Below, piece by piece: positions 6,725 to 43,999 of a stretch of DNA of 53,334 nt. Location: assembly GCA_902780865.1 (NCBI GenBank), contig CACZHC010000012.1, forward strand, positions 1 through 53,334. The letters are read 5' to 3'. The notes below the pieces were generated by a model, which was not told the DNA's origin, made no database searches, and saw only the letters and a program-made list of their open reading frames with translations. The position numbers were made by a program, and so were the translations under genes. The DNA is from an uncultured bacterium (GTDB lineage Bacteria; Verrucomicrobiota; Kiritimatiellia; RFP12; UBA1067). The stretch's first letter is position 1, and every line of letters begins with the position of its first letter.

Positions 6725-6746
6725 ATGCATCGAAAGGAAGACTGAC

Positions 6747-7004
6747 ATGGCGACAAAATGCAGGCATTGCGGTTCGTCGAGCTACGGTCACGGCTGCGCG
6801 TACGGCCCGGACAGGCTTCACGAGCATCGCGACGACGAGAAGCACTGCGAATGGTGCGGTTCGTCGAGCTACGGTCACGGGTGCGCGTATGGCCCGTACA
6901 GGTTGCACCGACACGGCCCGGGCGGCAACAAGTGCATCTGGTGCGGCTCGACGTCCAGCGGCTCGGGATGCCCCTACTCCCCGACGCGCCGACATGAGAA
7001 GTGA
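6747..7004 (+). CDS. Small protein of three CxxCG...GC...H repeats
   Basis: An 85-residue cytoplasmic protein made almost wholly of three tandem modules of about 27 residues: C-x2-CGS(S/T)S-x-G-x-GC-x-YGPxRLH. The first two are almost identical (CGSSSYGHGCAYGP). The third is CIWCGSTSSGSGC. Three cysteines plus histidines per module suggest a zinc ribbon-like metal site. There is no signal peptide, unlike the exported cysteine-repeat protein at 4518. Shine-Dalgarno GAAAGGAAG lies nine bases before ATG. The family name is unknown to me. The high nucleotide similarity of modules one and two indicates recent tandem duplication. Confidence 0.7.
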   Translation: MATKCRHCGSSSYGHGCAYGPDRLHEHRDDEKHCEWCGSSSYGHGCAYGPYRLHRHGPGGNKCIWCGSTSSGSGCPYSPTRRHEK

Positions 7005-8019: not shown

Positions 8020-9030
8020 ATGAAGATTGCCACACTTGCCGCGGTCATTGCGGCTGCCTCGGCCGCATTCGGAGAACTTGCCGTCAAGGACGGCGACACG
8101 CTCGCTTTTCTCGGAGACTCGATTACGCAGCAGGGGCAGGGAAGCCCCGACGGATACGTCAACCTCGTACTGCGCTCGCTCGCTCTCGAGGGAGTGTACG
8201 TCAATCCTGTGAAGGCCGGCATCGGCGGGAACAAGTCGAACGACATGTTGGCGCGGCTCGACAGGGACGTCCTCTCCCGGAAGCCGAAGGTGATGACGCT
8301 CTCGTGCGGCGTCAACGACGTGTGGCACCACGACTGGAACAAGGGCGTGTCGCTCGAGGACTACAAGAAGAACATCTCGGCGATATTCGACAAGTGCGCT
8401 GCGTCGAACTGCCAGGTCGTCGTGCTGACGGCGACCATGTTCGAGAAGCCCGAGATGGAGAAGTTCAAGCACAACGTGATGGTCGCGCCGTACAACGAGT
8501 GGCTCCGCGAGGAGGCGAAGCGCCGCGGATATCCCGTAGCGGACCTCAACGCCGACATGTGGAAGGCGCATGCCGACGATCCGTCTGTGAAGCTCACGCG
8601 CGACGGCGTGCACATGCTCCCCGCGGGCAACCGCCTGATGGCCCGCGGCGTCCTGCGCGCGCTCGGCATGGCGGAGGACCGGGTCGCCTCGCTCGACTGG
8701 GAGAACTGGAAGCCCGTCTGGGTGCTCTGCCGCTTCGACCTTAAGCCCGACGCAGACAAGGCCGACTACCTCGCTAAGACGAAGTCCGTCTTGGCGGCCG
8801 TCCGCGCCGAGCCCGGCTGCTGCGAGTACCGGCTCCTCGGCGACGCCGAGACCGACTGGGACAAGCCACAGCGCTTCGGCGACCGCACTCTCTGGATGCT
8901 CGAGAAGTGGCTTTCGGTCGGCGAGCTCAAGGCGCACCTCGCGACGCCCCACATGAAGAAGTTCGGCCCGTCGGTCGCCCCGATGCGCACGTCGTCCTCC
9001 TTCCACGTGCTTGAAGACGTCCTTCCCTGA
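8020..9030 (+). CDS. Secreted SGNH hydrolase fused to ABM domain
   Basis: A 336-residue exported protein. The signal peptide is residues 1-19 (MKIATLAAVIAAASAAFGE). An SGNH/GDSL esterase domain follows: block I GDSITQQG with Ser34, the oxyanion Gly and Asn in IGGNKSND and GVNDVW, and block V DGVHM with the Asp/His pair near residue 200. From about residue 230 a second domain begins (WVLCRFDLKPDADKADYLAK, EPGCCEYRLL, FGDRTLWMLEKW). It matches the antibiotic biosynthesis monooxygenase (ABM/YgiN-like) dimeric ferredoxin-like fold. The fusion is unusual. It probably deacylates a glycan or small ester outside the cytoplasm. Shine-Dalgarno GAAAGGAAAGG precedes ATG 8020. Confidence 0.85.
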   Translation: MKIATLAAVIAAASAAFGELAVKDGDTLAFLGDSITQQGQGSPDGYVNLVLRSLALEGVYVNPVKAGIGGNKSNDMLARLDRDVLSRKPKVMTLSCGVNDVWHHDWNKGVSLEDYKKNISAIFDKCAASNCQVVVLTATMFEKPEMEKFKHNVMVAPYNEWLREEAKRRGYPVADLNADMWKAHADDPSVKLTRDGVHMLPAGNRLMARGVLRALGMAEDRVASLDWENWKPVWVLCRFDLKPDADKADYLAKTKSVLAAVRAEPGCCEYRLLGDAETDWDKPQRFGDRTLWMLEKWLSVGELKAHLATPHMKKFGPSVAPMRTSSSFHVLEDVLP

Positions 9031-9045
9031 GTTTTTGGGAAGGAC
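9019..9045 (+). terminator. Hairpin at the end of the SGNH gene
   Basis: GTCCTTCCC (9019-9027) and GGGAAGGAC (9037-9045) pair perfectly over nine bases around a nine-base loop that contains the TGA stop. An overlapping alternative, GGACC/GGTCC, follows. There is no T-run after the stem, so efficiency is uncertain. Confidence 0.5.
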
Positions 9046-9074
9046 CGGAGGTCCACGGCTTAGGGTTGGGCTTG

Positions 9075-10460
9075 ATGAGCGTGAAGCCAGTAGAACAGAG
9101 CCTTTTCTCCGGCCGGACGGATGGAGAGCCGGACGAAAGCGTCCCGCTTGCGGAACGCCTGCGGCCACGCACGCTTGACGAAGTCGTAGGCCAGTCGCAT
9201 CTCGTCGGCGAGGGGAAGATACTGCGCGGGATGATCGAGCGCGATGTCGTCCCCTCGATGATCTTCTGGGGCCCGCCGGGCGTAGGGAAGACGACGCTCG
9301 CCAACGTGATCGCCCGGACGACGAACGCCCGGTTCATCACATTCTCCGCGGTGACGAGCGGCATCAAGGAAATCAAGGAAGTGATGCACCAGGCGGACGA
9401 AGACCGTGCCTTCGGGCGCAAGACGATTGTCTTCGTCGACGAAATACACCGCTTCAACAAGGCGCAGCAGGACGCGTTTCTCCCGTTCGTCGAGCGCGGC
9501 AGCATCATCCTCATCGGCGCGACGACGGAGAATCCGTCCTTCGAGGTCAACGGGGCGCTGCTCTCGCGCTGCAAGGTGTTTGTCCTCAAGGGGCTCGGCG
9601 AGGACGATCTCGTCACGCTTCTCAGGCGCGCCGTAACCGACGCTCGAGGCTTTGGCTCGATGAAGGTCCGCGTATCAGACGACCAGCTCCGCGCCCTCGC
9701 CGTCTTCGCGAACGGCGATGCGCGCGCGGCGCTTTCGTCGCTCGAGATGGTCGTCTTGAACTGCGGCGGAGATGGCGGCGAGCTTGTCGTTGACGATGGC
9801 GTTCTGGAGCAGTGCACGTCCCGCAAGTCGCTTCTCTACGACAAGGACGGCGAGGAGCACTACAACATCATCTCGGCGCTTCACAAGTCGATGCGCAACT
9901 CGGACCCTGACGCGGCGGTATACTGGCTCGCGCGGATGCTGGAAGGAGGAGAGGATCCGCTCTATGTCGCACGGCGCGTCACTCGCTTCGCGGCGGAGGA
10001 CGTGGGGCTCGCAGATCCGCGCGCGCTGGAAATCGCTGTCGCCGCGCAGCATGCCTGCCACTTCATCGGCATGCCCGAGTGTTCCGTCCATCTGGCGGAG
10101 GCGGTAATCTACCTCTCCATCGCGCCGAAGTCCAATTCGTCCTACATCGCCTACGAAAAGGCGAAGAAGGACGCGCTTACCCGCACCGCCGAGCCGGTCC
10201 CGCTCTCGATTCGCAACGCCCCTACAAAGCTTATGAAGGAGCTTGGCTATGGGAAGGGGTATCGCCTTGCGCACTACGAGGAGAACAAGATAGCGGACCT
10301 CCAGTGTCTTCCCGATTCCCTCCAGGGCACCGAGTACTATGTCCCCACGAGCGAAGGCGTCGAGGCGCGCATCAAGACTCGCCTTGAGCAGATCAAGGCC
10401 TGGAAGGCGGAGCTCAAGAGGAAGAGGCAAAATCAAGGGCCGTCCCCCTCGTCGCCCTAG
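9075..10460 (+). CDS. rarA: Replication-associated recombination protein A
   Basis: A 461-residue AAA+ clamp-loader-like ATPase (RarA/MgsA/WRNIP1 family) that acts at stalled replication forks. LAERLRPRTLDEVVGQSHLV opens the family signature. Walker A is GPPGVGKTT, Walker B VFVDEIHRFNK, and sensor 1 IGATTENPSFEVN. The MgsA C-terminal region with YWLARMLEGGEDPLYVARR and ASEDVGLADP-like AAEDVGLADP is characteristic. ATG 9075 is preferred. A TTG at 9066 in the same frame is possible. The ribosome site is weak (AGGG). Length is normal for the family. Confidence 0.93.
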   Translation: MSVKPVEQSLFSGRTDGEPDESVPLAERLRPRTLDEVVGQSHLVGEGKILRGMIERDVVPSMIFWGPPGVGKTTLANVIARTTNARFITFSAVTSGIKEIKEVMHQADEDRAFGRKTIVFVDEIHRFNKAQQDAFLPFVERGSIILIGATTENPSFEVNGALLSRCKVFVLKGLGEDDLVTLLRRAVTDARGFGSMKVRVSDDQLRALAVFANGDARAALSSLEMVVLNCGGDGGELVVDDGVLEQCTSRKSLLYDKDGEEHYNIISALHKSMRNSDPDAAVYWLARMLEGGEDPLYVARRVTRFAAEDVGLADPRALEIAVAAQHACHFIGMPECSVHLAEAVIYLSIAPKSNSSYIAYEKAKKDALTRTAEPVPLSIRNAPTKLMKELGYGKGYRLAHYEENKIADLQCLPDSLQGTEYYVPTSEGVEARIKTRLEQIKAWKAELKRKRQNQGPSPSSP

Positions 10461-10506
10461 CGCAGCCGCCTTCGACGCGTCAAACTTCCCGAGTCCCTGT
10501 CCCCAC

Positions 10507-10536
10507 TTGCCGCAGGTTCGCGCGATGTGGTATACT
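10507..10536 (+). promoter_or_regulatory. Promoter of tdh-kbl
   Basis: TTGCCG (10507-10512), 18-base spacer and GTGG-TATACT (10531-10536). The leader includes ATAGGAG, eight bases before ATG 10572 of tdh. Confidence 0.55.
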
Positions 10537-10571
10537 ACGACAAAACACCTCTCCATAGGAGTCGCCGACAA

Positions 10572-34411: not shown

Positions 34412-37400
34412 ATGCTGACGAAGATGTGGACAGGTTCCTTGCTGTTTCTCCTTTTCGCCTCGCTCGTGGCGCTGGCGGTCGCCGTTGCATACGAGAAGGA
34501 CTTTCATCCCCTGTGGGACTTTGCGGCTAGGTTCAGGCGCTTGCCTTTCGGGAAGCGGCTGGCGGTAATCGTGTTCGTCTGCGCCATGTGGGCCTATGCG
34601 AGCATCAAACCGGGCGACGGCGGCGGCAACGGCGGCGGAGGCGATGGCGGTGGCGGCACCAACAACGTGCCGCAGATGGTGCCGGGACCGGGCAACCTCG
34701 ACCCGATGTCTCTGCCAGGCGGAGGGCTTCAGGGTTTGCAGGGTCAGGCACACCTGAACCCGGAGCTGCATCCTGTCAACCAGCCCGTGGGCGGCGGGGC
34801 GACTTTCAATCTTGTCGGCTTCGAGCCAATCACCTCGACGAACACGACCCGGACGCTGGAGGCGGCGGACTTCGAGCGCGGATTCGTGATGACCCGCATC
34901 GGCACTGACGAGGAGTTCGACTTCACGCCACCGCCCAATGCGACCATCGTCTCCGACTGGCGCTCGTTCGGCGCGGCGACGGACTGGGTTTATGTCGCGC
35001 TGACAAACTGGATGTTCACGGTCGGCACAAACGAAGTGGAACGGTTGCGCGTCTATTCCTTCGGCAAGGTTGCTCCGCTTGTCCGCGATGCTGCCGGGAC
35101 GATAGCCACGGACAACTGGTTCGCCCCGTTCATGGCGACTCTCGGCGTCGTGCCCGAGGCTAGCTGGGGATTGCTCGACGAGGCAGACGCGGGCTCTTGC
35201 GACCGCTTCGCGGCTCGCGCTTCGCGCTCGGCCAACCTGATCGCTACGCGACAGGCGCATTTGCCAAGCCAGGTGTGGTATGCAGTGACCCAGGACAACA
35301 CGCTTGTCGTCACCTGGCAGAACGCGCTTCTTGACCGCGACACCGGGAAGCCCGTCTCGTTCCAGGTAGAGTTCTTCACGGACGGCAGGTTCATCTTCCG
35401 CTACGACCTTTCACGGCTTGGCGGCGGGGAGGCGGCAAATGTCCTCGCGGGCGCTTCGTTCTGCGGCAACGAGTGGGCCACCAACTCCCTGCCGACGAAC
35501 GTCACCTCGATGGCGTTCTACCCGCTTTCGGAGGACGATGCATACGACCAGGACCCCGACGGTGATGGGCTTCTCACCATAGACGAGCTGTTCTTCTACG
35601 ACACAGACCCCCACAACGCCGACACGGACTACGACGGCCTTGCAGACGACGCGGAACTGCTTGTCTACAATTCCGACCCGCTCGACCCTAACTCCATCAG
35701 CGCCGCCTACTGCGACGGATTTGCCGCGAAGCTCGGCGACCTCGACCCGTTCTACTGCCCAGAGGGCTCGACGAATACCGTTCTCGAACACATCTTTTAC
35801 TCTGGCACGACCAATGGCGTCTTCGCCTACCCGACCTCGACGGTCGAGACGGCGGTGTTGAAGATCATGGTCTCTGGCGAGGGTACGGGGCGGCTTGTCG
35901 TGGGAGATGCTGTCGTGCCGCTTGTTGCGCCGCCTCCAATGCGGAGTGGAGCGCAGACGAACACATTGCTTCTTGCCGTTGGGAAGGGAGTCCGAAAGTC
36001 GCTATGGTGGGACAAGCCCGATGGGCTTGACGTTGCCCTTCGTTCTGACGACTTGCTCATAGGCAGGATGCCGACATGGTACTTGCCTCATGGCTGGCTC
36101 GCGTTCCCGCACACAGACGCGACCACTCCCTGCATCCACGACTTTGTTTCAAATGGCAAGACTGTCTCGCTCGTGCATGGAGAGGAGTTCCCTGGCCTCA
36201 CCGCTACTTGGACCAACGGCAATGCCGATGTCGAGATAGAGAACCTGCCGCCGGACTCTGCCGAAATCCATGGCCATTTTGCGAGGAACCAAACCCGGCC
36301 CATTTCCTACACCGTAGATCACCCCAGTCGTCTCAACGAAGAGCCAGTGGCGTTTGCGCAGACGCTCCGCTTCTGCCCCAACCTTGCGGACGAGGACGCG
36401 CCTCCAGGGGTGGAGGACGAGGATTATGATTCGAGTGAATGGCCAATGCAAAGCGGGATGCCTGAAGTGGAAGACACGACGAGCGAGTACGAGGCTGCGG
36501 CGGAGTACGCGCGTATCGCCGGGCTCCCGCTCGCGCAGGGGGTTCTCCAGCTTTACGGCCCGATAGACCGTGAGGACATGGTCTCCCTCACGGTCCCGAC
36601 GGGGGCTCCGGTCCGCTGTTGCGACTGCCTAGACCACTGGCAGAGCAACTACGTCGCCGCCGCGTGGACATCGCCCCGGCTTTCGGTTTACGATGTTGCG
36701 GACAACCACTTCGACATTTCCTACGAGGACGTCATGGTGTCCGTGCGCGGAGAATACCCGAGCCGCGAACCATACGGAGACGGAGTCCTCTTCGTCACGA
36801 ACGGAGCGCCATCGTTTACAAAGGCATACACGGTTCTTGGCGTGGACATAGAGAACTTGTACGGCCCGGCGCTGTCGGAGTATGCGTCGCTCAACGCGTC
36901 TTTCGGCTTCCCGATTACCGTAACCACTAATCTTGACAATGCGACAGAACTTGAATTCCAATCAGATGTATTGCTCTCCAATGGAGTGTTCAAAGTTGCC
37001 ATAGATGACGCGACTGCACCTTTCGAGATATGGATTGGCGGATGCTGGACGTGGGACGACGATCTTTGCGAGAATGTATATCATCCGCCGTTTTTGCTGG
37101 TGGATAGCGCACGTGCGGACGGACGGCACTTCACCGTTCGCCAATGGCGTAAATTGGCAGAAGATCGTGGGTACGGGCGGTATTTGCCTTTTTACATCCT
37201 GTCGTCTTCGACGGGCCGTTGCGATCTTGTGTTTTCGTATGTCTTTGACCAAAATGGCTCTGCGATACGCTCGGCTGTCCGTCGCCGCATTACCTCGGTC
37301 AACCCGCCGTTGCTTGTGGACTATGACAGGGACGGCCGGATAGATTCATCTGATGCGTTGGCTTGGATTGACGGGAGACTCGCTTATTTCTGGAAGAACG

Positions 37401-39166
37401 ACGACAAATTCAAGGGCGATGACGCATTCAGATCCTCCTCTGCGCTCAACTCCGGAAATGGCGTGGTAGATGGCCGGAATGATCTCGTAAACTTCCTTAC
37501 TATTGGTGTTGATGTTTCTGCGTTTGCATCTCGCTGGAGCGCCCTTGATGTCGATTATCGCATTGTAGCGTATTCAAGTGGTTTGAGAAATGCCAAGCTT
37601 GCTCTTGCGGACATACAATGGTCGCAGATTGGCGATGCCGCATTTGGAGAAGACTTTGACATTCACGGCAATGCTCTCTACGAAGCGCCTATAGCCACGC
37701 TCGGCACGGGAACCAATCTGCCGCCTTCGTTTGTCGCGTTGTCTCATACCGGGAGAAGTACGCTTTTTGTGGAGTTCCCTGACGAACAGCGAAATGACAG
37801 TCTGTATCTGAGGATATACTCGAAGTCGGACGGCTCCTGCCTTTACTCGCAGGCGATGCGGCTCCACGTCGGCAACGTCTCCGGGATGATCGGCTGGCTG
37901 AATCTCAGGGGGGCGGCAGGTGGATCGGATGGCGTTCCGACACGGCTGTCGACTCCGGACTGGCCGGCCGATGCACATGGGCCGGGCAATGTCGTGTTTG
38001 TCCACGGCTACAACATGGCCGAAGATGCGGAGACTCCTGACTGGGCGAAAAACGTATTCAAGAAGCTGTGGTGGTCCGGCCTTGATAGGGGCTTTGTAGC
38101 CGTTCAATGGCGAGGCAACGAGGGTCAGTACTATCAAGTCGGATATGGCTGGGTATCGCCCAACTACTACGGCAATGTACAGAACGCATTTGCGACGGCT
38201 TCAGCATTGAAGACGGCTATGGACGATGTGCAAAGCCCCAAGTGGTTCATTGCCCACTCACTTGGCAATATGCTGGTATCCGCTGCAATTCAAGATTACG
38301 AAATGCCTTATGAAAGGTACTTCATGCTCAATGCGGCGGTTGCTATGGAGGCTTACGACCCGACATTTGGAATCTCGCAGGAGTCACATGATAACATGAC
38401 GCCGGTGGCTTGGACGAACTACGTGGACATGGTTCGAGCGACGCATTGGTTTGAGCTATTCCCGGAGGGAGACGGACGTCGGCTGCTCACATGGAAGGGG
38501 CGCTTTTCAAATGTAACGAACATTGTCAACTTCTATTCCACACAGGAGGATGTCGTCTGCAATGGAGACGGAACGCAGATGCCGTATGGCAGGCCCTATT
38601 CTTGGTACAACCAAGAGTATCGCAAGGGGTCGTGGGCCATGATGCTTCACGAATACGAAGGCGGCTGGGAATTCAATCCATATCATGACACGGTTACCGG
38701 TTCATGGGTTGGTAACGAGTACGTCGAGCATAGACAGAGGATGTCGCCGCAGGACGCGGCCAACTTGACTGGTGAGACCCTCCGGCAACATCCGTTCTTC
38801 CTTGATTTTGCAAATCCGGAGATGTACACTTCATCCAACGGATTGATTGTCGCTTCCAATTATCTCTACCGAGCGAAAATGCTTGCCTACGCCATTCCTT
38901 CGGAGTCGTACGCGGTTGGCGCGAATCCTTTGCCTGGACTCAATGCCTATACAAATGCGATTACAGGTGCAGTCGTACCTTCGCGTAACCATAATATGGC
39001 CGCCGAATACACATTTGGCCAAGATGACTTGCCGCAAAATGGAAGTGAATTTGAAGATAAACATAGGGACTGGCAACACAGCACTTTTGTCCAGCGCTCA
39101 TACAAGCGTGTGCATCAGTTGTTCAAGGCCATAACACAGACCATTAAGGAGGAATCCAATGAATAG
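34412..39166 (+). CDS. 1,584-residue anchored protein with C-terminal alpha/beta hydrolase
   Basis: Two hydrophobic segments (residues about 8-26 and 50-64) and a Gly-rich linker (67-80) lead into a long extracytoplasmic part. Residues about 90-370 include a nidogen-like beta domain (QVWYAVTQDNTLVVTWQNAL). Thrombospondin type 3 calcium repeats follow near 380-425 (DQDPDGDGLLTIDE, DTDYDGLADDAE), and an EF-hand/dockerin-like pair near 970-1030 (DYDRDGRIDSSD, NGVVDGRND). The C-terminal alpha/beta hydrolase begins at GNVVFVHGYNM (~1190). Ser1283 in AHSLGN is the nucleophile and His1556 in RDWQHSTF a likely catalytic base. The last 114 residues recur in the orphan gene at 42520. Base composition becomes AT-richer after about 36,900. 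A lipase-like surface enzyme or effector is possible. Confidence 0.72.
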   Translation: MLTKMWTGSLLFLLFASLVALAVAVAYEKDFHPLWDFAARFRRLPFGKRLAVIVFVCAMWAYASIKPGDGGGNGGGGDGGGGTNNVPQMVPGPGNLDPMSLPGGGLQGLQGQAHLNPELHPVNQPVGGGATFNLVGFEPITSTNTTRTLEAADFERGFVMTRIGTDEEFDFTPPPNATIVSDWRSFGAATDWVYVALTNWMFTVGTNEVERLRVYSFGKVAPLVRDAAGTIATDNWFAPFMATLGVVPEASWGLLDEADAGSCDRFAARASRSANLIATRQAHLPSQVWYAVTQDNTLVVTWQNALLDRDTGKPVSFQVEFFTDGRFIFRYDLSRLGGGEAANVLAGASFCGNEWATNSLPTNVTSMAFYPLSEDDAYDQDPDGDGLLTIDELFFYDTDPHNADTDYDGLADDAELLVYNSDPLDPNSISAAYCDGFAAKLGDLDPFYCPEGSTNTVLEHIFYSGTTNGVFAYPTSTVETAVLKIMVSGEGTGRLVVGDAVVPLVAPPPMRSGAQTNTLLLAVGKGVRKSLWWDKPDGLDVALRSDDLLIGRMPTWYLPHGWLAFPHTDATTPCIHDFVSNGKTVSLVHGEEFPGLTATWTNGNADVEIENLPPDSAEIHGHFARNQTRPISYTVDHPSRLNEEPVAFAQTLRFCPNLADEDAPPGVEDEDYDSSEWPMQSGMPEVEDTTSEYEAAAEYARIAGLPLAQGVLQLYGPIDREDMVSLTVPTGAPVRCCDCLDHWQSNYVAAAWTSPRLSVYDVADNHFDISYEDVMVSVRGEYPSREPYGDGVLFVTNGAPSFTKAYTVLGVDIENLYGPALSEYASLNASFGFPITVTTNLDNATELEFQSDVLLSNGVFKVAIDDATAPFEIWIGGCWTWDDDLCENVYHPPFLLVDSARADGRHFTVRQWRKLAEDRGYGRYLPFYILSSSTGRCDLVFSYVFDQNGSAIRSAVRRRITSVNPPLLVDYDRDGRIDSSDALAWIDGRLAYFWKNDDKFKGDDAFRSSSALNSGNGVVDGRNDLVNFLTIGVDVSAFASRWSALDVDYRIVAYSSGLRNAKLALADIQWSQIGDAAFGEDFDIHGNALYEAPIATLGTGTNLPPSFVALSHTGRSTLFVEFPDEQRNDSLYLRIYSKSDGSCLYSQAMRLHVGNVSGMIGWLNLRGAAGGSDGVPTRLSTPDWPADAHGPGNVVFVHGYNMAEDAETPDWAKNVFKKLWWSGLDRGFVAVQWRGNEGQYYQVGYGWVSPNYYGNVQNAFATASALKTAMDDVQSPKWFIAHSLGNMLVSAAIQDYEMPYERYFMLNAAVAMEAYDPTFGISQESHDNMTPVAWTNYVDMVRATHWFELFPEGDGRRLLTWKGRFSNVTNIVNFYSTQEDVVCNGDGTQMPYGRPYSWYNQEYRKGSWAMMLHEYEGGWEFNPYHDTVTGSWVGNEYVEHRQRMSPQDAANLTGETLRQHPFFLDFANPEMYTSSNGLIVASNYLYRAKMLAYAIPSESYAVGANPLPGLNAYTNAITGAVVPSRNHNMAAEYTFGQDDLPQNGSEFEDKHRDWQHSTFVQRSYKRVHQLFKAITQTIKEESNE
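38822..39166 (+). repeat. C-terminal module repeat, copy 1
   Basis: The 345-base 3' end of the large hydrolase gene (residues 1471-1584, from MYTSSNGLIVASNYLYRA). It is strongly similar at DNA level to 42613-42954. The first 115 bases differ at only about ten positions. The middle differs, and the end (KHRDWQHSTFVQRSYKRV) is again conserved. Confidence 0.85.
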
Positions 39167-40145
39167 ACCTATCATAGCAGTGTCGCTCAGTTTGTTTGCT
39201 AGCGCTGGCTGTGCTAGTGAACGATTGCATGTCAACGTTGTTGATAATTATGATGAGCCTGTCTCAAATGCTGTAGTGCAAGTAAGTTTTACATCGGGGC
39301 ATGTGGTTTTTGGGAGAGGAACCCCACGCTATTATTCAGATAAAACGGATGTGGCTGGAAATGCGATTGTAAAGTTTGACTGTGACAATTCGGATGTCCA
39401 TTGGTCGGTAAAGGCCGATGGCTATTATCCTAGCGACACCTATAAAGAGAAATTCAAAATCGATGTAGTGCAGATTCCGCCAGCATATTACAATGTAGTC
39501 ATGCTTGAGCATGAGAAGAAAGGAAAGGCCAAGCTCTGGAAAAAGCTAAACCCGCAGCCGATGATTGCACATGGAGTTGGCTATATGGAGGATCAGCGTT
39601 TATTCCCTACAGCGAACGGCAAATACGGCTTTGACATTGTGAAGTTTGACTGGCTTCCTCCTTTGGGGAAAGGTGAGATTGCCGACTTTTATCTCGTCCG
39701 GCGAATCGGAGAGGTGGTGCCAGACGGGATTGTCGGCTATTTGGAGTTCGCCGACAGGTGCGGGATGTACATGGCAAAACAGACGGGCAGCAAGACGTTT
39801 CCGGCGACTTATGAGGCAAACACAAATGCGTTGTTCAAGGCACAAATTCCTTTCATATTTGACCATGCGGATGACGGCAGCAAAGCTGTGACATACAAAG
39901 ACATAGTTGGTGAAGACGAGTATGGTGTGCTGCGAACGCGGGTTGTCTGCGACGAACATGGGAATATCATCAAGGCAAATTATTCAAAAGTTCTTGGCCC
40001 ATTCCGTGCGGGACATGCTTATCGGGGATGGGTTTTGTATACACCTTGCGCGGTTTTCAACCCCCGTGTAAACGACCCTAATCTCGAATCCGACCCTGAA
40101 CACAGTTATGACCCCAATCTTAAACGTCCATCACTCGCACCGTAA
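39159..40145 (+). CDS. Lipoprotein-like partner A of the hydrolase protein
   Basis: A 328-residue exported protein. The signal ends SLFASAGCASERL, with Cys17 a probable lipidation site although the lipobox is imperfect. An N-terminal carboxypeptidase-regulatory-like beta domain follows (LHVNVVDNYDEPVSNAVVQV), then an unassigned domain ending LRTRVVCDEHGNIIKANYSK and AVFNPRVNDPNLE. It is a paralogue of the proteins at 42947 and, more distantly, 41527. Its ATG overlaps the stop of the large gene by eight bases (ATGAATAG), indicating coupled translation. Visibly AT-richer than flanking core genes. Immunity or chaperone function toward the hydrolase is inferred only from position. Confidence 0.7.
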   Translation: MNRPIIAVSLSLFASAGCASERLHVNVVDNYDEPVSNAVVQVSFTSGHVVFGRGTPRYYSDKTDVAGNAIVKFDCDNSDVHWSVKADGYYPSDTYKEKFKIDVVQIPPAYYNVVMLEHEKKGKAKLWKKLNPQPMIAHGVGYMEDQRLFPTANGKYGFDIVKFDWLPPLGKGEIADFYLVRRIGEVVPDGIVGYLEFADRCGMYMAKQTGSKTFPATYEANTNALFKAQIPFIFDHADDGSKAVTYKDIVGEDEYGVLRTRVVCDEHGNIIKANYSKVLGPFRAGHAYRGWVLYTPCAVFNPRVNDPNLESDPEHSYDPNLKRPSLAP

Positions 40146-40198: not shown

Positions 40199-40864
40199 AT
40201 GAATCAAAGGGAGCGCAACGAGAAGCATTGTTGGATTTTTCCGCTTGTTGTCATGGCGGCATTTGCTGCGAAAGTCACTTGCGGTGCGCAAATATGGCCG
40301 TGTCCTGGGATATGCTTTACGGGAGACGTAAATTTCCCAAGGTTGGAGAAAGGGGTGGTGCTCCTCGACATGGGAATTCCGCAAACAGAACGTCCCTCTG
40401 TATATGGACTGAGCTTTTCGTTTTGGCGCAGCCACTATGAAGAGAAGATGATGGGCGTTCAATTTGGGCTTGTGGAGGCTGTCGCCGCAGATGCATACGG
40501 CATTCAGTTGGCATTGGCCAATGACGCAGGGCGTGGAGCGGGCGTTCAAGTGGGCTTGTTTAACATCTATGACGATGCTTCGTTTCGACTTCAAGCAGGC
40601 CTTTGGAATTCCTATCGGATTTCTCTTAATTGGAATTACAGTAGGCCAACAAATTCTGGTGGATACGGCGTACAACTTGGGCTTATGAATATGTCATCGA
40701 AAGGAGGGCATCTTCAATTAGGTTTTCTGAATTTTGCCGATAAGTCCACGGTTTTCCAATTTGGGTTTTATAACAATATGGACAAGGAATCGCGCGGATT
40801 ACAAATAGGAATCATAAACGAGGTTGGCAATAATGGTTCTCCGTTCATAGGTTGGAATTGGTAG
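40199..40864 (+). CDS. LA_2272-type surface repeat protein
   Basis: A 221-residue exported protein with a signal sequence (FPLVVMAAFAAKVTCGA). From residue 80 on it contains repeated short strands of the type G-(V/I/L)-Q-(L/I/F)-G-L-x-N: MGVQFGLVEA, YGIQLALAND, AGVQVGLFNI, YGVQLGLMNM, HLQLGFLNFA, VFQFGFYNNM, RGLQIGIINEV. This repeat is known from Leptospira LA_2272-like surface proteins and forms a beta-structure, perhaps in the outer membrane. AT-rich, with a weak Shine-Dalgarno. It is probably part of the accessory island rather than of core metabolism. Confidence 0.7.
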   Translation: MNQRERNEKHCWIFPLVVMAAFAAKVTCGAQIWPCPGICFTGDVNFPRLEKGVVLLDMGIPQTERPSVYGLSFSFWRSHYEEKMMGVQFGLVEAVAADAYGIQLALANDAGRGAGVQVGLFNIYDDASFRLQAGLWNSYRISLNWNYSRPTNSGGYGVQLGLMNMSSKGGHLQLGFLNFADKSTVFQFGFYNNMDKESRGLQIGIINEVGNNGSPFIGWNW

Positions 40865-40895: not shown

Positions 40896-41429
40896 ATGAA
40901 TAACATTACAGGCATGAATATCCTGATTCTGCAAGGTTCGCCGAGGGCGAACGGAAACACGGCGTGGATGGCGGAGGAGTACCGCAAGGCGGCGGAGGCG
41001 GCCGGGCACAAGGTGGCGCTTGTCGACGTGTCGCACAAGAAGATCGCCGGGTGCATGGCCTGCGGGTATTGTCGCGGCAAGGGGAACGGGGCGTGCATCC
41101 AGAAGGACGACATGCAGGAACTCTACCCGCTCCTGGCCGAGGCGGAGGTTCTCGTCCTCGCGTCGCCGATCTACTACTTCACCATGTCCGCACAGCTTCA
41201 GGCACCGATCCAGCGAATCTACTGCATGAACAAGCCGGGCAAGCTGAAGAAGATGGCGCTCCTCGCGTCCTCCTATTCGCCCAACGTGTACGACGGCGCA
41301 ATCGGGGAGTATCGCGGCATCCTCAACTATTGGGGCGTCGAGGATACGGGCATCGTCACGGCCAAAAACGACGAGCAGAAGACGGACGCCACCCGCGGCC
41401 GCATCCTTGAACTCGCCGGGAAACTTTGA
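40896..41429 (+). CDS. Flavodoxin-fold NAD(P)H-dependent FMN reductase
   Basis: A 177-residue cytoplasmic flavoprotein of the NADPH-dependent FMN reductase/iron-sulfur flavoprotein family. FMN phosphate loop GSPRANGNTAWM (residues about 14-25), then the family ASPIYYFTMSAQLQAPIQR. Between them is a cysteine cluster ACGYCRGKGNGACIQKDDM, which in related proteins binds a 4Fe-4S cluster or is redox-active. Shine-Dalgarno AAGGAGC precedes ATG 40896. It is GC-rich with normal codon use and thus unlike the AT-rich genes on both sides, suggesting it was part of the ancestral chromosome or came from elsewhere. A perfect hairpin follows its stop. Confidence 0.88.
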   Translation: MNNITGMNILILQGSPRANGNTAWMAEEYRKAAEAAGHKVALVDVSHKKIAGCMACGYCRGKGNGACIQKDDMQELYPLLAEAEVLVLASPIYYFTMSAQLQAPIQRIYCMNKPGKLKKMALLASSYSPNVYDGAIGEYRGILNYWGVEDTGIVTAKNDEQKTDATRGRILELAGKL

Positions 41430-41449: not shown

Positions 41450-41480
41450 GACGACTATGGGGTCCGACCCCATAGTCGTC
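41450..41480 (+). terminator. Perfect 13-bp hairpin with GGGGTCCGACCCC core
   Basis: GACGACTATGGGG (41450-41462), loop TCCGA, CCCCATAGTCGTC (41468-41480). It lies 20 bases after the flavoprotein stop and could terminate or protect its mRNA. The core resembles GGGGTCAGACCCC-type palindromes that are scattered in many bacterial genomes. No T-run follows directly. Confidence 0.55.
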
Positions 41481-41526
41481 ACGTATTCAAATTTTATGAG
41501 AGACTCAAAGAGGAAGGAGCACTTCA

Positions 41527-42504
41527 ATGAAAACTTCTGTTTCTAAATGCCGTTTTATGGCGAGCGTGGTACTTGCGGCCTGCCTTTCGCAGCAAGCGAG
41601 TGCAGTATCGCGTGAATTCGAGAACGCTTGTCACAACGGTGCTGACGCAAGGGTTGAGTTTCATGTTGTTGACGACATGGGCATGCCGATTCACAATGCA
41701 AGGGTCAATGTCTTCTTTGACATGATCGACCGTTCTAAGGGGCGGAGGATTATCGGGAACACGGACACGAACGGCGTTTTTGTAGCCGAGGCAAAGACAG
41801 GCGGCATCCTTGAAGTTGAAGTGACTGGCGACCATCACTATCGAAGCAAGCGGCATATGAGTTTCATTGCGATGGGGAGCGAGCATGAGGTGTCCGGCGG
41901 CAAATGGCAGCCCTGGGGGGCCAAAGAGGACATTGTGCTTTTGCCAATTAAAAATCCAGCCGCGAGAAGAGTGACTTCTTCAGGATGGAAAGACACACAT
42001 GAATTGAACAAGTGGATCGGGTTCGATTGCGAACGGTACGATTTTGTCACGCCATTTGGAAGCGGCAAGGAATCCGATATGGAAGTGTTCTTTGATTGGA
42101 ACGGGGTGTGGGATTCGGGTTACGATGGCATGGCATTGAAACTTCGCTTCCCCGCCAAATTCTCCGGCGGGTACTATGCGAACAAGACGCCAGGGAGCGA
42201 GTATTTCGGTGTCTACAGTGCGGACACGAATGGTGTGTACAAAAGTGAGTTTTCTTTCTCGGAGCGAGTTGGAAGCCGCGATAGGCGTGGAAGAGTTACA
42301 AGCTGGGATCGGCATTTGTTTGATCAGTCAAAAGTCCTTGTGGTCAGGAGCAGGTGCAAATTGAATGAAGACGGAACGCTAAAGTCCGCTCACTATTTCC
42401 AGTTGGGGGAGATAAGATTTTCCGGCGACGAGAGGGGGGCCGCCCTTAGGTTCCTCTCGATTTTCAATCCGACTCCGAACGACACCAACCTTGAGCCGAA
42501 ATAA
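41527..42504 (+). CDS. Lipoprotein, partner family paralogue B
   Basis: A 325-residue exported protein. The signal contains a good lipobox VVLAAC (Cys19), so it is probably a lipoprotein. The N-terminal beta domain (VEFHVVDDMGMPIHNARVNVFFD) is the same carboxypeptidase-regulatory type as in the proteins at 39159 and 42947. The C-terminal part matches them in VVRSRCKLNEDGTLKSAHYF and FNPTPNDTNLE. The middle is divergent and contains a GYYANKTPGSEYFGVY segment. Shine-Dalgarno AGGAAGGAG precedes ATG. Unlike the other two, it has no hydrolase module directly upstream, perhaps a lost one. Confidence 0.7.
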   Translation: MKTSVSKCRFMASVVLAACLSQQASAVSREFENACHNGADARVEFHVVDDMGMPIHNARVNVFFDMIDRSKGRRIIGNTDTNGVFVAEAKTGGILEVEVTGDHHYRSKRHMSFIAMGSEHEVSGGKWQPWGAKEDIVLLPIKNPAARRVTSSGWKDTHELNKWIGFDCERYDFVTPFGSGKESDMEVFFDWNGVWDSGYDGMALKLRFPAKFSGGYYANKTPGSEYFGVYSADTNGVYKSEFSFSERVGSRDRRGRVTSWDRHLFDQSKVLVVRSRCKLNEDGTLKSAHYFQLGEIRFSGDERGAALRFLSIFNPTPNDTNLEPK

Positions 42505-42519: not shown

Positions 42520-42954
42520 ATGAACCGCATTGTAACAACATACTGTACTAGCTGCTGGATTCCTGCCGTGGTACATGTCGTGTCGTTCATTGTGGCCTCC
42601 TCCTATTCGCCCATGTACACTTCTTCCAACGGATTGATCGTTGCTTCAAACTATCTATACCGAGCGGAAATGCTTGCCTACGCCATTCCTTCGGAGTCGT
42701 ACGCGGTTGGCGCGAATCCATTGCCTGGACGAACTTCTATGACCCCACAAAGTCCGCCAGATGGTCTATACTACAATCACGACATGGCAACACTTTTTAC
42801 GTCAGGCATAGGTGATTTGCCGCCTAATGGCGATGATTCCGAGGACAAGCACCGAGATTGGCAGCACAGCACTTTCGTGCAGAGGTCTTATAAAAGAGTC
42901 AACCAGCTTTTCAAGGAGATAATGAAACACATCAAGGAGTCTGCTAATGAATAA
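42520..42954 (+). CDS. Orphan C-terminal hydrolase module
   Basis: A 144-residue protein whose residues 32-144 match residues 1471-1584 of the 1,584-residue protein: MYTSSNGLIVASNYLYRAEM, then YAIPSESYAVGANPLPG, a variable middle and HRDWQHSTFVQRSYKRV. It includes the putative catalytic His region but not the Ser nucleophile domain. The first 31 residues are a hydrophobic, unrelated lead (VVHVVSFIVASSYSP) that may act as signal or anchor. The gene overlaps the next partner gene by eight bases (ATGAATAA), like the full-length copy. It is either an expressed orphan module for recombination or a decaying remnant. Confidence 0.65.
   Translation: MNRIVTTYCTSCWIPAVVHVVSFIVASSYSPMYTSSNGLIVASNYLYRAEMLAYAIPSESYAVGANPLPGRTSMTPQSPPDGLYYNHDMATLFTSGIGDLPPNGDDSEDKHRDWQHSTFVQRSYKRVNQLFKEIMKHIKESANE
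42613..42954 (+). repeat. C-terminal module repeat, copy 2
   Basis: Copy of 38822-39166. The homology begins exactly at ATGTACACTTC, internal to the orphan gene, and ends at its stop, which overlaps the adjacent partner gene in the same way. Confidence 0.85.
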
Positions 42955-43999
42955 GAATCTTATTGCAATGGCATGTCTTTTGATGGCAAACTGTGGTTGT
43001 GCCAGCGAAAGGCTCTATGTCAAGGTAATTGACGACGATGGACGCCCGGTTACAAATGCTGTTGTCACTGTTGGTGCTCCTCCCAAGACGGTGTTCTGGG
43101 GAAGTAATAGCCAACGAAATAAAGGTAAATCTTATAATTCCCAGACTGACGCAAATGGTGAGGCAGTAGTCTCGTTCAATTGCACTGCTGCCACTTTTCG
43201 TTGGAGTGTAAAGGCGGACGGATGCTATCCAAGCAATGTTTTTGAAGAAAGGTTCAAGGAGTTTGACGAGGTGGTTGTGCCTCCAGCTTTTACCAAGGTG
43301 ATTCTCCATGGACATGAGAAACATGGCAATGTAATTCTTTACCGCAAGAAGAATCCACAACCGATGTATGCGCATTCGCGCGAAAATGTTGTTAAGTCAC
43401 CCATTGCCAATGGACGGTATGGCTTTGACCTTCAGGTGTTTGACTGGGTTTCGCCGCATGGCAATGGCAAGATTGCGGATTTTTATTATGTCAGAGAACG
43501 TCCTGATGAAACGAATGCCACAAAAAGGACTATTTATGATAAAAGCGGATTTTTCCAATTTAGAAGGGGGGAGCCGGGATTTCCCAATGTCGGTGATGTT
43601 GTTGGACGTATTGAGTTTGATGAAAATTGTGGAGCATACATAGAGAAGCAGACTGGATGCGAGAGCTTCCCGTCAACACATTGTGCGGATGTTCGACGAG
43701 AATACGTCAGCTCGATTCCGATTACCATTATGTTTTGCGACGAATTCCGCGTTTGGGTATGTGAGTCACCAGTTATAAACGGCAATGAATACATGGTGAT
43801 TCGTTCACGTGTGAAATGTGATGAACAAGGCAATATCATTTCGGCTAATTATTCAAAGATTCTTGGGCCAGCAGGTTTTGCTGGGTTGATAAATTTTGAG
43901 GAATCTGTTTTCAACCCCCGCCCCAACGACACCAATCTTGAATTCGATCCCGAACGAAACCTCTATCAAGGCAAGAAGGGCCGGGGAATGATTCCGTAA
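42947..43999 (+). CDS. Lipoprotein-like partner C of the orphan module
   Basis: A 350-residue exported protein, a clear paralogue of the one at 39159: shared GCASERL(Y/H)VKV, DDDGRPVTNAVV, WSVKADGCYPSN, NPQPMYAHS, GRYGFDLQVFDWVSPHGNGK, IADFYYVRE, RSRVKCDEQGNIISANYSK and VFNPRPNDTNLE. Cys before ASER is a probable lipidation site. It has an insertion near residues 185-205 compared with copy A. Start overlaps the orphan module's stop (ATGAATAA). AT-rich. The degree of divergence from copy A suggests diversification rather than simple recent duplication. Confidence 0.7.
   Translation: MNKNLIAMACLLMANCGCASERLYVKVIDDDGRPVTNAVVTVGAPPKTVFWGSNSQRNKGKSYNSQTDANGEAVVSFNCTAATFRWSVKADGCYPSNVFEERFKEFDEVVVPPAFTKVILHGHEKHGNVILYRKKNPQPMYAHSRENVVKSPIANGRYGFDLQVFDWVSPHGNGKIADFYYVRERPDETNATKRTIYDKSGFFQFRRGEPGFPNVGDVVGRIEFDENCGAYIEKQTGCESFPSTHCADVRREYVSSIPITIMFCDEFRVWVCESPVINGNEYMVIRSRVKCDEQGNIISANYSKILGPAGFAGLINFEESVFNPRPNDTNLEFDPERNLYQGKKGRGMIP

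Follow-up and report, generated by a model that had tools for sequence, protein, structure and literature searches.

The locus described here probably encodes a polymorphic effector/immunity-like system, built on an alpha/beta hydrolase with a specificity loop beside its active site. This reading draws on the anatomy of the locus, the co-variation of its parts, exchange between species, displacement of old gene ends and recurrence across the class. The window, that is, the whole stretch of DNA analysed (53,334 nucleotides; G000:C12), is part of a 3.36-Mb draft genome. A PADLOC scan found nothing. The features are as follows.

34412..39166, + strand: full-length hydrolase gene, 1584 aa, with two N-terminal hydrophobic segments, a long middle of extracellular type and a C-terminal alpha/beta hydrolase
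38822..38938, + strand: conserved arm of the hydrolase, 39 codons ahead of the variable segment, 93% DNA identity with the orphan
38877-38928, + strand: 52-bp run identical in the hydrolase arm and the orphan
38939..39064, + strand: hypervariable segment of type A, directly 5' of the catalytic His; same type in RUG14821
39065..39163, + strand: conserved C-terminal end of the hydrolase with the predicted catalytic His
39159..40145, + strand: partner A, of secreted lipoprotein type, with an Ig/transthyretin-like N-terminal domain and a variable C-terminal half; overlaps the hydrolase by 8 bp
41480..41530, + strand: former hydrolase end, a 16-codon remnant (HVFKFYERLKEEGALQ and a stop); its stop overlaps the start of partner B
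41527..42504, + strand: partner B, displaced; 79% identity with the cognate partner now present in G096:C97
42520..42597, + strand: 5' part of the orphan ORF, matching the beginning of an unrelated ORF for a small membrane protein; fusion joint near 42598-42612
42613..42954, + strand: orphan hydrolase tail of type C, 113 codons and a stop (arm 42613-42729, variable segment 42730-42852, end 42853-42951)
42947..43999, + strand: partner C, 350 aa; overlaps the orphan tail by 8 bp; 59% identity to the RUG14528 partner

The interval from partner A to the orphan holds an LA_2272-type surface-repeat protein, an FMN-reductase-like gene and partner B. The surface-repeat protein (40199-40864; NCBIfam NF047436, E 6e-20) lies between the current and the displaced modules.

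The catalytic domain of the hydrolase carries an oxyanion motif (VHGYN), a nucleophile motif (AHSLG) and a histidine in DWQHS. The HG, the serine of the AHSLG-type motif and the histidine of W-x-H-S were invariant across the members. AHSLG is a near relative of the GxSxG-type motif, as carried by the alpha/beta hydrolases of Tle/Tli pairs. Abhydrolase_6 and DUF900 were each matched in the C-terminal domains of 18 of 24 members (E<=0.1). A Pfam search with the full-length protein at E<=1 gave zero matches, and this included the RHS/YD repeats that mark Rhs proteins and TPS/FHA domains. The sole match in a profile search of the PDB was marginal, to a pancreatic-type lipase (E 0.3), and the Tle and Tli structures were not matched. 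The AlphaFold model of the hydrolase had a pLDDT of 36 and was left out of interpretation. That of the partner (pLDDT 59, with weak Foldseek matches) backs the N-terminal Ig/transthyretin-like domain only. This partner domain is of the Ig/CarboxypepD_reg/transthyretin-like kind, and the C-terminal half is uncharacterised. By a simple count, 42 of 44 partners had an N-terminal hydrophobic signal and 14 of 44 a lipobox-like motif.

The stop of the hydrolase gene and the start of partner A overlap at 39159-39166 (ATGAATAG), and the stop of the orphan tail and the start of partner C overlap at 42947-42954 (ATGAATAA). Both overlaps are the 8-mer ATGAATAR, in agreement with an earlier note on this DNA, which had described the same 8-bp overlap at the two joints. 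Partner B (41527) is likewise preceded by the 16-codon tail remnant (41480-41530), which ends in FYERLKEEGALQ and a stop, with an ATGA overlap. Overlap of tail and partner is the rule across the family: among 28 units, its length was 4 bp in 19 with the ORF starts as called and in three more after correction of starts by eye, and 8 bp in two.

The orphan ORF (42520-42954) encodes 144 aa. Its homology to the hydrolase C terminus starts at 42613 and takes in 113 of these (~70% identity, E 2e-46). As the same note had read it, the putative catalytic His (DWQHSTF) is present in the tail and the Ser, that of the AHSLG motif, is missing. The first ~26 residues of the orphan (42520-42597) correspond to the beginning of an unrelated ORF for a small membrane protein, which lies 3' of a partner in G032:C13 (first 78 bases of the orphan; 81% over 139 bp), and this makes the orphan an in-frame fusion. 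A 16-bp identity (TCCTCCTATTCGCCCA) was observed between the fusion junction (42598-42613) and the FMN-reductase-like gene (41268-41283), and this is possibly a recombination junction. The DNA identity of hydrolase and orphan was 93% in the 39-codon arm, 49% in the variable part and 68% in the last 33 codons, where 13 of the 20 changed codons were synonymous. The claim that the tail is near identical at both ends thus holds for the protein, but not for the DNA of the last 33 codons. The arm was shared recently by hydrolase and orphan, and the tail end diverged anciently.

The types of the window were found separately in other species. In RUG14821 (L053), tail and partner are both of type A (partner 70% to partner A), and a leftover partner end of type C lies downstream; in RUG14528 (L013/L054), both are of type C (partner 59% to partner C). 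The amino acid identity of the variable segments was 60% between window A and RUG14821 and 54% between orphan C and RUG14528. Across types, it was ~29-39% for variable segments and 42-47% for partners (42% for partner A vs C). A and C are two old types common to several species. On account of such old trans-species types, a fresh duplication of A into C was rejected, and the proposal that tail and partner had been duplicated as one unit was not supported. Because A and C occur as old alleles in separate species elsewhere, C would be a displaced or acquired end and not a new copy of A. The arm of the window, 93% identical between full gene and orphan, is 70-75% identical to those of the other two species; a recent arm joined to anciently diverged ends fits recombination at the arm. 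Several side observations were made in these relatives. In RUG14528 (L013, 8118-9249), the hydrolase is frameshifted near 8771 and its catalytic His motif is interrupted by a TAG (W*HSTF), with the partner intact, and a separate fragment of the hydrolase core lies at 6744-6983. In RUG14821 (L053), short C-type/A-type partner C-terminal remnants (9376-9480 and 10490-10567) stand beside a third partner gene, and a 408-aa ORF at 8134-9360 is divergent and partner-like.

Partner B was 79% identical to the current partner of G096:C97 (next best 42%), and the tail end also matched. B is therefore probably the trace of a former 3' end in the lineage of the window's hydrolase gene. The dN (0.13) and dS (1.12) of B against this relative, which are pairwise values from which the time of displacement is not separable, are consistent with constraint on partner B.

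Species with 83-91% identical hydrolase DNA split abruptly 190-225 nt 5' of the stop. The hydrolases of G027:C18 and G039 were 91% identical over 3,367 bp, and mostly 94-100% identical in the ~900 bp that lead up to the break; from 191 nt 5' of the stop, identity dropped to ~50% and stayed there through the partner. A 110-bp piece (95%) of the second partner of G039 was left downstream in G027. G002 and G032:C13 (82.7% over 4,076 bp) parted at -216/-225. The tails of the window part in the same region, the full gene and the orphan at about -230/-224. Longer exchanges were also found, between the window and G096:C97 (85% up to -1839) and between G000:C48 and G055 (94% up to -1762). In the latter two loci (L019/L062), the 94% identity covers 4,155 bp and takes in the upstream flank and the hydrolase's N-terminal part, and the catalytic ends are unrelated, which is end exchange on a larger scale inside the genus.

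The displacement of an old tail end and its partner downstream was seen directly. Positions +989..+3052 past the hydrolase stop of G055 correspond to -41..+2022 of G096:C9 (99.1% over 2,064 bp). The current tail end (41 nt) and partners of G096:C9 therefore sit in G055 behind a different tail and partner. The downstream orphan module of G008:C286 corresponds in turn to the current tail end and partner of G055 (81.5% over 1,031 bp). Many of the genomes compared are draft assemblies. The locus thus has a conserved upstream part, an exchangeable C-terminal end and an adjacent partner, as polymorphic toxins do. That tail and partner move together with their coupling kept, as the note had proposed, was supported by the type matching, the co-variation and the displaced units. 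Its idea of an end swap was largely upheld, since different tails have been joined to the large gene between species at one breakpoint.

Co-variation was analysed in the 28 hydrolase and partner loci of the genus, with a 12-locus clade as a sub-set. Partner identity tracked the variable segment beyond the core (28 loci; partial Mantel r = 0.33, p = 2e-4; such p-values assume exchangeable loci and are supportive, not exact), so that the proposed check for co-variation of partner and variable middle across many tails came out positive. Within the clade, which was chosen by the look of tails and core, the correlation of variable segment and partner was r = 0.52 without a significant contribution from the core. 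The scan along the hydrolase peaked solely at the variable segment, and the co-variation lay in the C-half of the partner (r = 0.61) vs 0.11 in the N-half. With full controls (core, pre-arm, tail end and partner N-half), the C-half and the variable segment were correlated at r = 0.62 (p = 5e-5) in the clade of 12, r = 0.28 (p = 1e-4) in all 28 loci and r = 0.22 (p = 0.03) in the remaining 16 alone. As the tail end and the partner N-half separate the co-varying parts, simple linkage is no explanation. Individual modules behaved in the same way. Two orphan modules at distant loci of G230 had identical 40-codon arms, variable segments of 82%, tail ends of 69%, partner N-halves of 65% and C-halves of 97% identity. 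Two modules of G155 had tail ends of 98% (DNA) and N-halves of 85% identity, with variable segments of 62% and C-halves of 46%. The co-variation of end and partner thus exceeds phylogeny, as in polymorphic toxins. It shows a matched pair, but not in itself inhibition.

Plain decay, in which a second tandem copy of hydrolase and partner lost most of its hydrolase and nothing more happened, would leave graded remnants and frameshifted hydrolases such as that of RUG14528. However, the types are common across species and co-vary with the partner, the breakpoints coincide, the arms were recently shared but the ends are old, and displaced modules equal the current end of another species. Decay alone is disfavoured by the displaced modules and the co-variation, and we consider it very improbable.

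The effector/immunity-like organisation recurs beyond the genus. Within the class, 61 of 240 genomes had the hydrolase family, and so did 38 of 108 genera. Class-wide loci contained 29 short ORFs with a tail end, including three cut or frameshifted main copies; the Ser motif was absent in 22, and a partner lay directly 3' of 28, which is no genome-wide rate since the ORFs came from 20 regions picked for orphan or paired copies. Downstream modules of orphan end and partner are a further property in common with polymorphic toxins. G155, a genome of one contig, has six tail matches without the Ser region, no intact hydrolase and 11 partner matches that are mostly open, and G173 has orphan tails and lacks the recipient hydrolase gene. 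G230, G155 and G173 are each assembled as a single contig, which argues against artefacts of assembly. The remnants ahead of extra partners ranged from ~6 codons up to almost whole catalytic domains. In a tail-remnant test of 14 extra partners, seven outscored and one tied the best of 816 control ORF starts, which were listed mechanically and whose top score (10.85) may itself represent a real tail. Extra partners without a tail remnant exist, for example at L059 and L020. A single ORF at L095 (4393-5688) fuses a partner and an orphan hydrolase tail in frame, and is followed by another partner with a 4-bp overlap.

These remnants bear on the role of the orphan tails. The earlier note held that such a tail makes sense only as a replacement end, which does not fit the short remnants or G155, where there is no hydrolase to repair. 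Retention of the partner, with the tail as a leftover and translational lead-in, explains the remnants better, and it is possible that an orphan tail also serves as a donor. Orphan tails might instead be silent cassettes, a donor store that varies the enzyme end (as a surface or for its substrate) while the partner moves along. The orphan arms are near-identical to the full gene and the ends divergent (93% in the window, 97-99% in G075, 86-95% in G297), and an orphan of G230 has a 98% arm in common with a full gene at another locus, as a donor store would predict. But many remnants (6-50 codons) are too short as a loop source, G155 and G173 hold tails without a recipient gene, and such a model has no need of partner co-variation. 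We regard it as improbable as the whole explanation; silent-cassette use may exist alongside immunity.

Lipase-specific foldases are specific partners of secreted lipases. The partner could accordingly be a cognate chaperone or activator, either a specific foldase or an anchoring lipoprotein, and loop and partner would then co-evolve without toxicity. Its downstream position, translational coupling and export agree with this, as does the co-variation expected of contact surfaces. However, extra partners are stacked, up to four at one genus locus, and G155 has kept its partners with no hydrolase left, where a clientless foldase should vanish. This role is unlikely, although less so than the silent store. 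The persistence of partners without an intact enzyme, in G155 and beside the frameshifted hydrolase of RUG14528, counts for immunity.

In the effector/immunity reading, we believe that a very large protein, apparently membrane-anchored or exported, ends in an alpha/beta hydrolase of lipase/esterase type. A short hypervariable segment, probably beside the mouth of the active site, would set which partner fits. The partner, exported and often lipoprotein-like, would be made by translational coupling from the hydrolase stop, and its C-terminal half would bear the matching specificity and most likely inhibit the enzyme. Incoming units of tail and partner would recombine into the hydrolase 3' end via the conserved DNA 5' of the variable segment; the enzyme would gain a new loop, and the former tail end and partner would be pushed downstream. 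The old partner would be retained for the protection that it continues to give against neighbours of the old type. Applied to the window, this would make A the current end, B an earlier end cut to 16 codons and its partner, and C another old or acquired end that has kept its homology arm and a whole variable segment. That the enzyme is hydrolytically active, that it is delivered to neighbours and toxic to them, and that the partner inhibits it are what we infer from this arrangement. Against it, no delivery domain or secretion system of the sort expected of polymorphic toxins was recognised in searches with Pfam (full protein), for TssC (absent from seven genomes) and for a CdiB-type transporter (in one of seven), and not every extra partner has a tail remnant.

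A tentative extension, to which we give somewhat less than even chances, is that this is an undescribed, class-wide system of kin discrimination or antagonism, with a constant exported hydrolase, a recombining specificity loop of ~25-60 residues next to its active site that is matched by the partner C-half, and delivery by neither CDI nor T6SS; the stacked partners would then reflect rivals met. Our literature search returned no paper joining Kiritimatiellota with a polymorphic toxin, and DUF900 was not named there as a polymorphic toxin effector. If the reading is true, a largely uncultured and unstudied bacterial class joins those with polymorphic effector/immunity-like loci, pair specificity is narrowed to a short loop and one partner half, and partner arrays become readable as a record of past types. 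Two named relatives bear RUG (rumen) assembly names. The co-variation supplies many natural cognate and non-cognate pairs.

Several known systems resemble the locus. Nuclease colicins are plasmid bacteriocins with cognate cytoplasmic immunity proteins. Like the present family, they keep the catalytic fold constant and set immunity specificity in a small hypervariable patch, and they have remnant gene ends and extra immunity genes. Unlike them, the enzyme here is a hydrolase, not a nuclease, and the partner is exported, not cytoplasmic. In the passages of PMC9860674 used here, known lipase effectors come paired with lipoprotein immunity proteins, and the outer-membrane lipoprotein Tli3 plugs the crevice of the T6SS lipase effector Tle3 and inhibits it. 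As in Tle3/Tli3 (PMC9860674), a Ser-His-Asp alpha/beta hydrolase is followed here by an exported or lipoprotein-type protein, which is the inhibitor in the case of Tli3. Unlike Tle3/Tli3, no Tle/Tli structure profile was matched here, and TssC, the only T6SS component searched, was absent in seven of seven genomes. Arrays of orphan tails, present here, are not described for Tle3/Tli3 in those passages of PMC9860674.

In CDI, as here, a large N-terminal part is conserved, the variable C-terminal end and downstream partner are swapped together, and old units end up downstream as orphan pairs, frequently arrayed, whose conserved 5'-end sequence permits recombination (PMC4927057). The orphan cdiA-CT/cdiI modules have been read in two ways, as fossils kept for immunity or as silent stores for reuse (PMC4927057). 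Unlike CDI, the full protein here had no TPS/FHA Pfam match, a CdiB-type transporter was present in only one of the seven genomes searched, and a short segment inside one catalytic domain varies, whereas CDI varies a whole toxin domain. The Maf islands of Neisseria (mafB, mafB-CT cassettes and mafI) likewise have a full-length gene followed by alternative C-terminal cassettes with their own immunity genes, and what is an alternative end in one strain is expressed in another (PMC4287609). The proteins are different from those of Maf: here the enzyme fold is constant, only the specificity segment varies, and the partner is exported.
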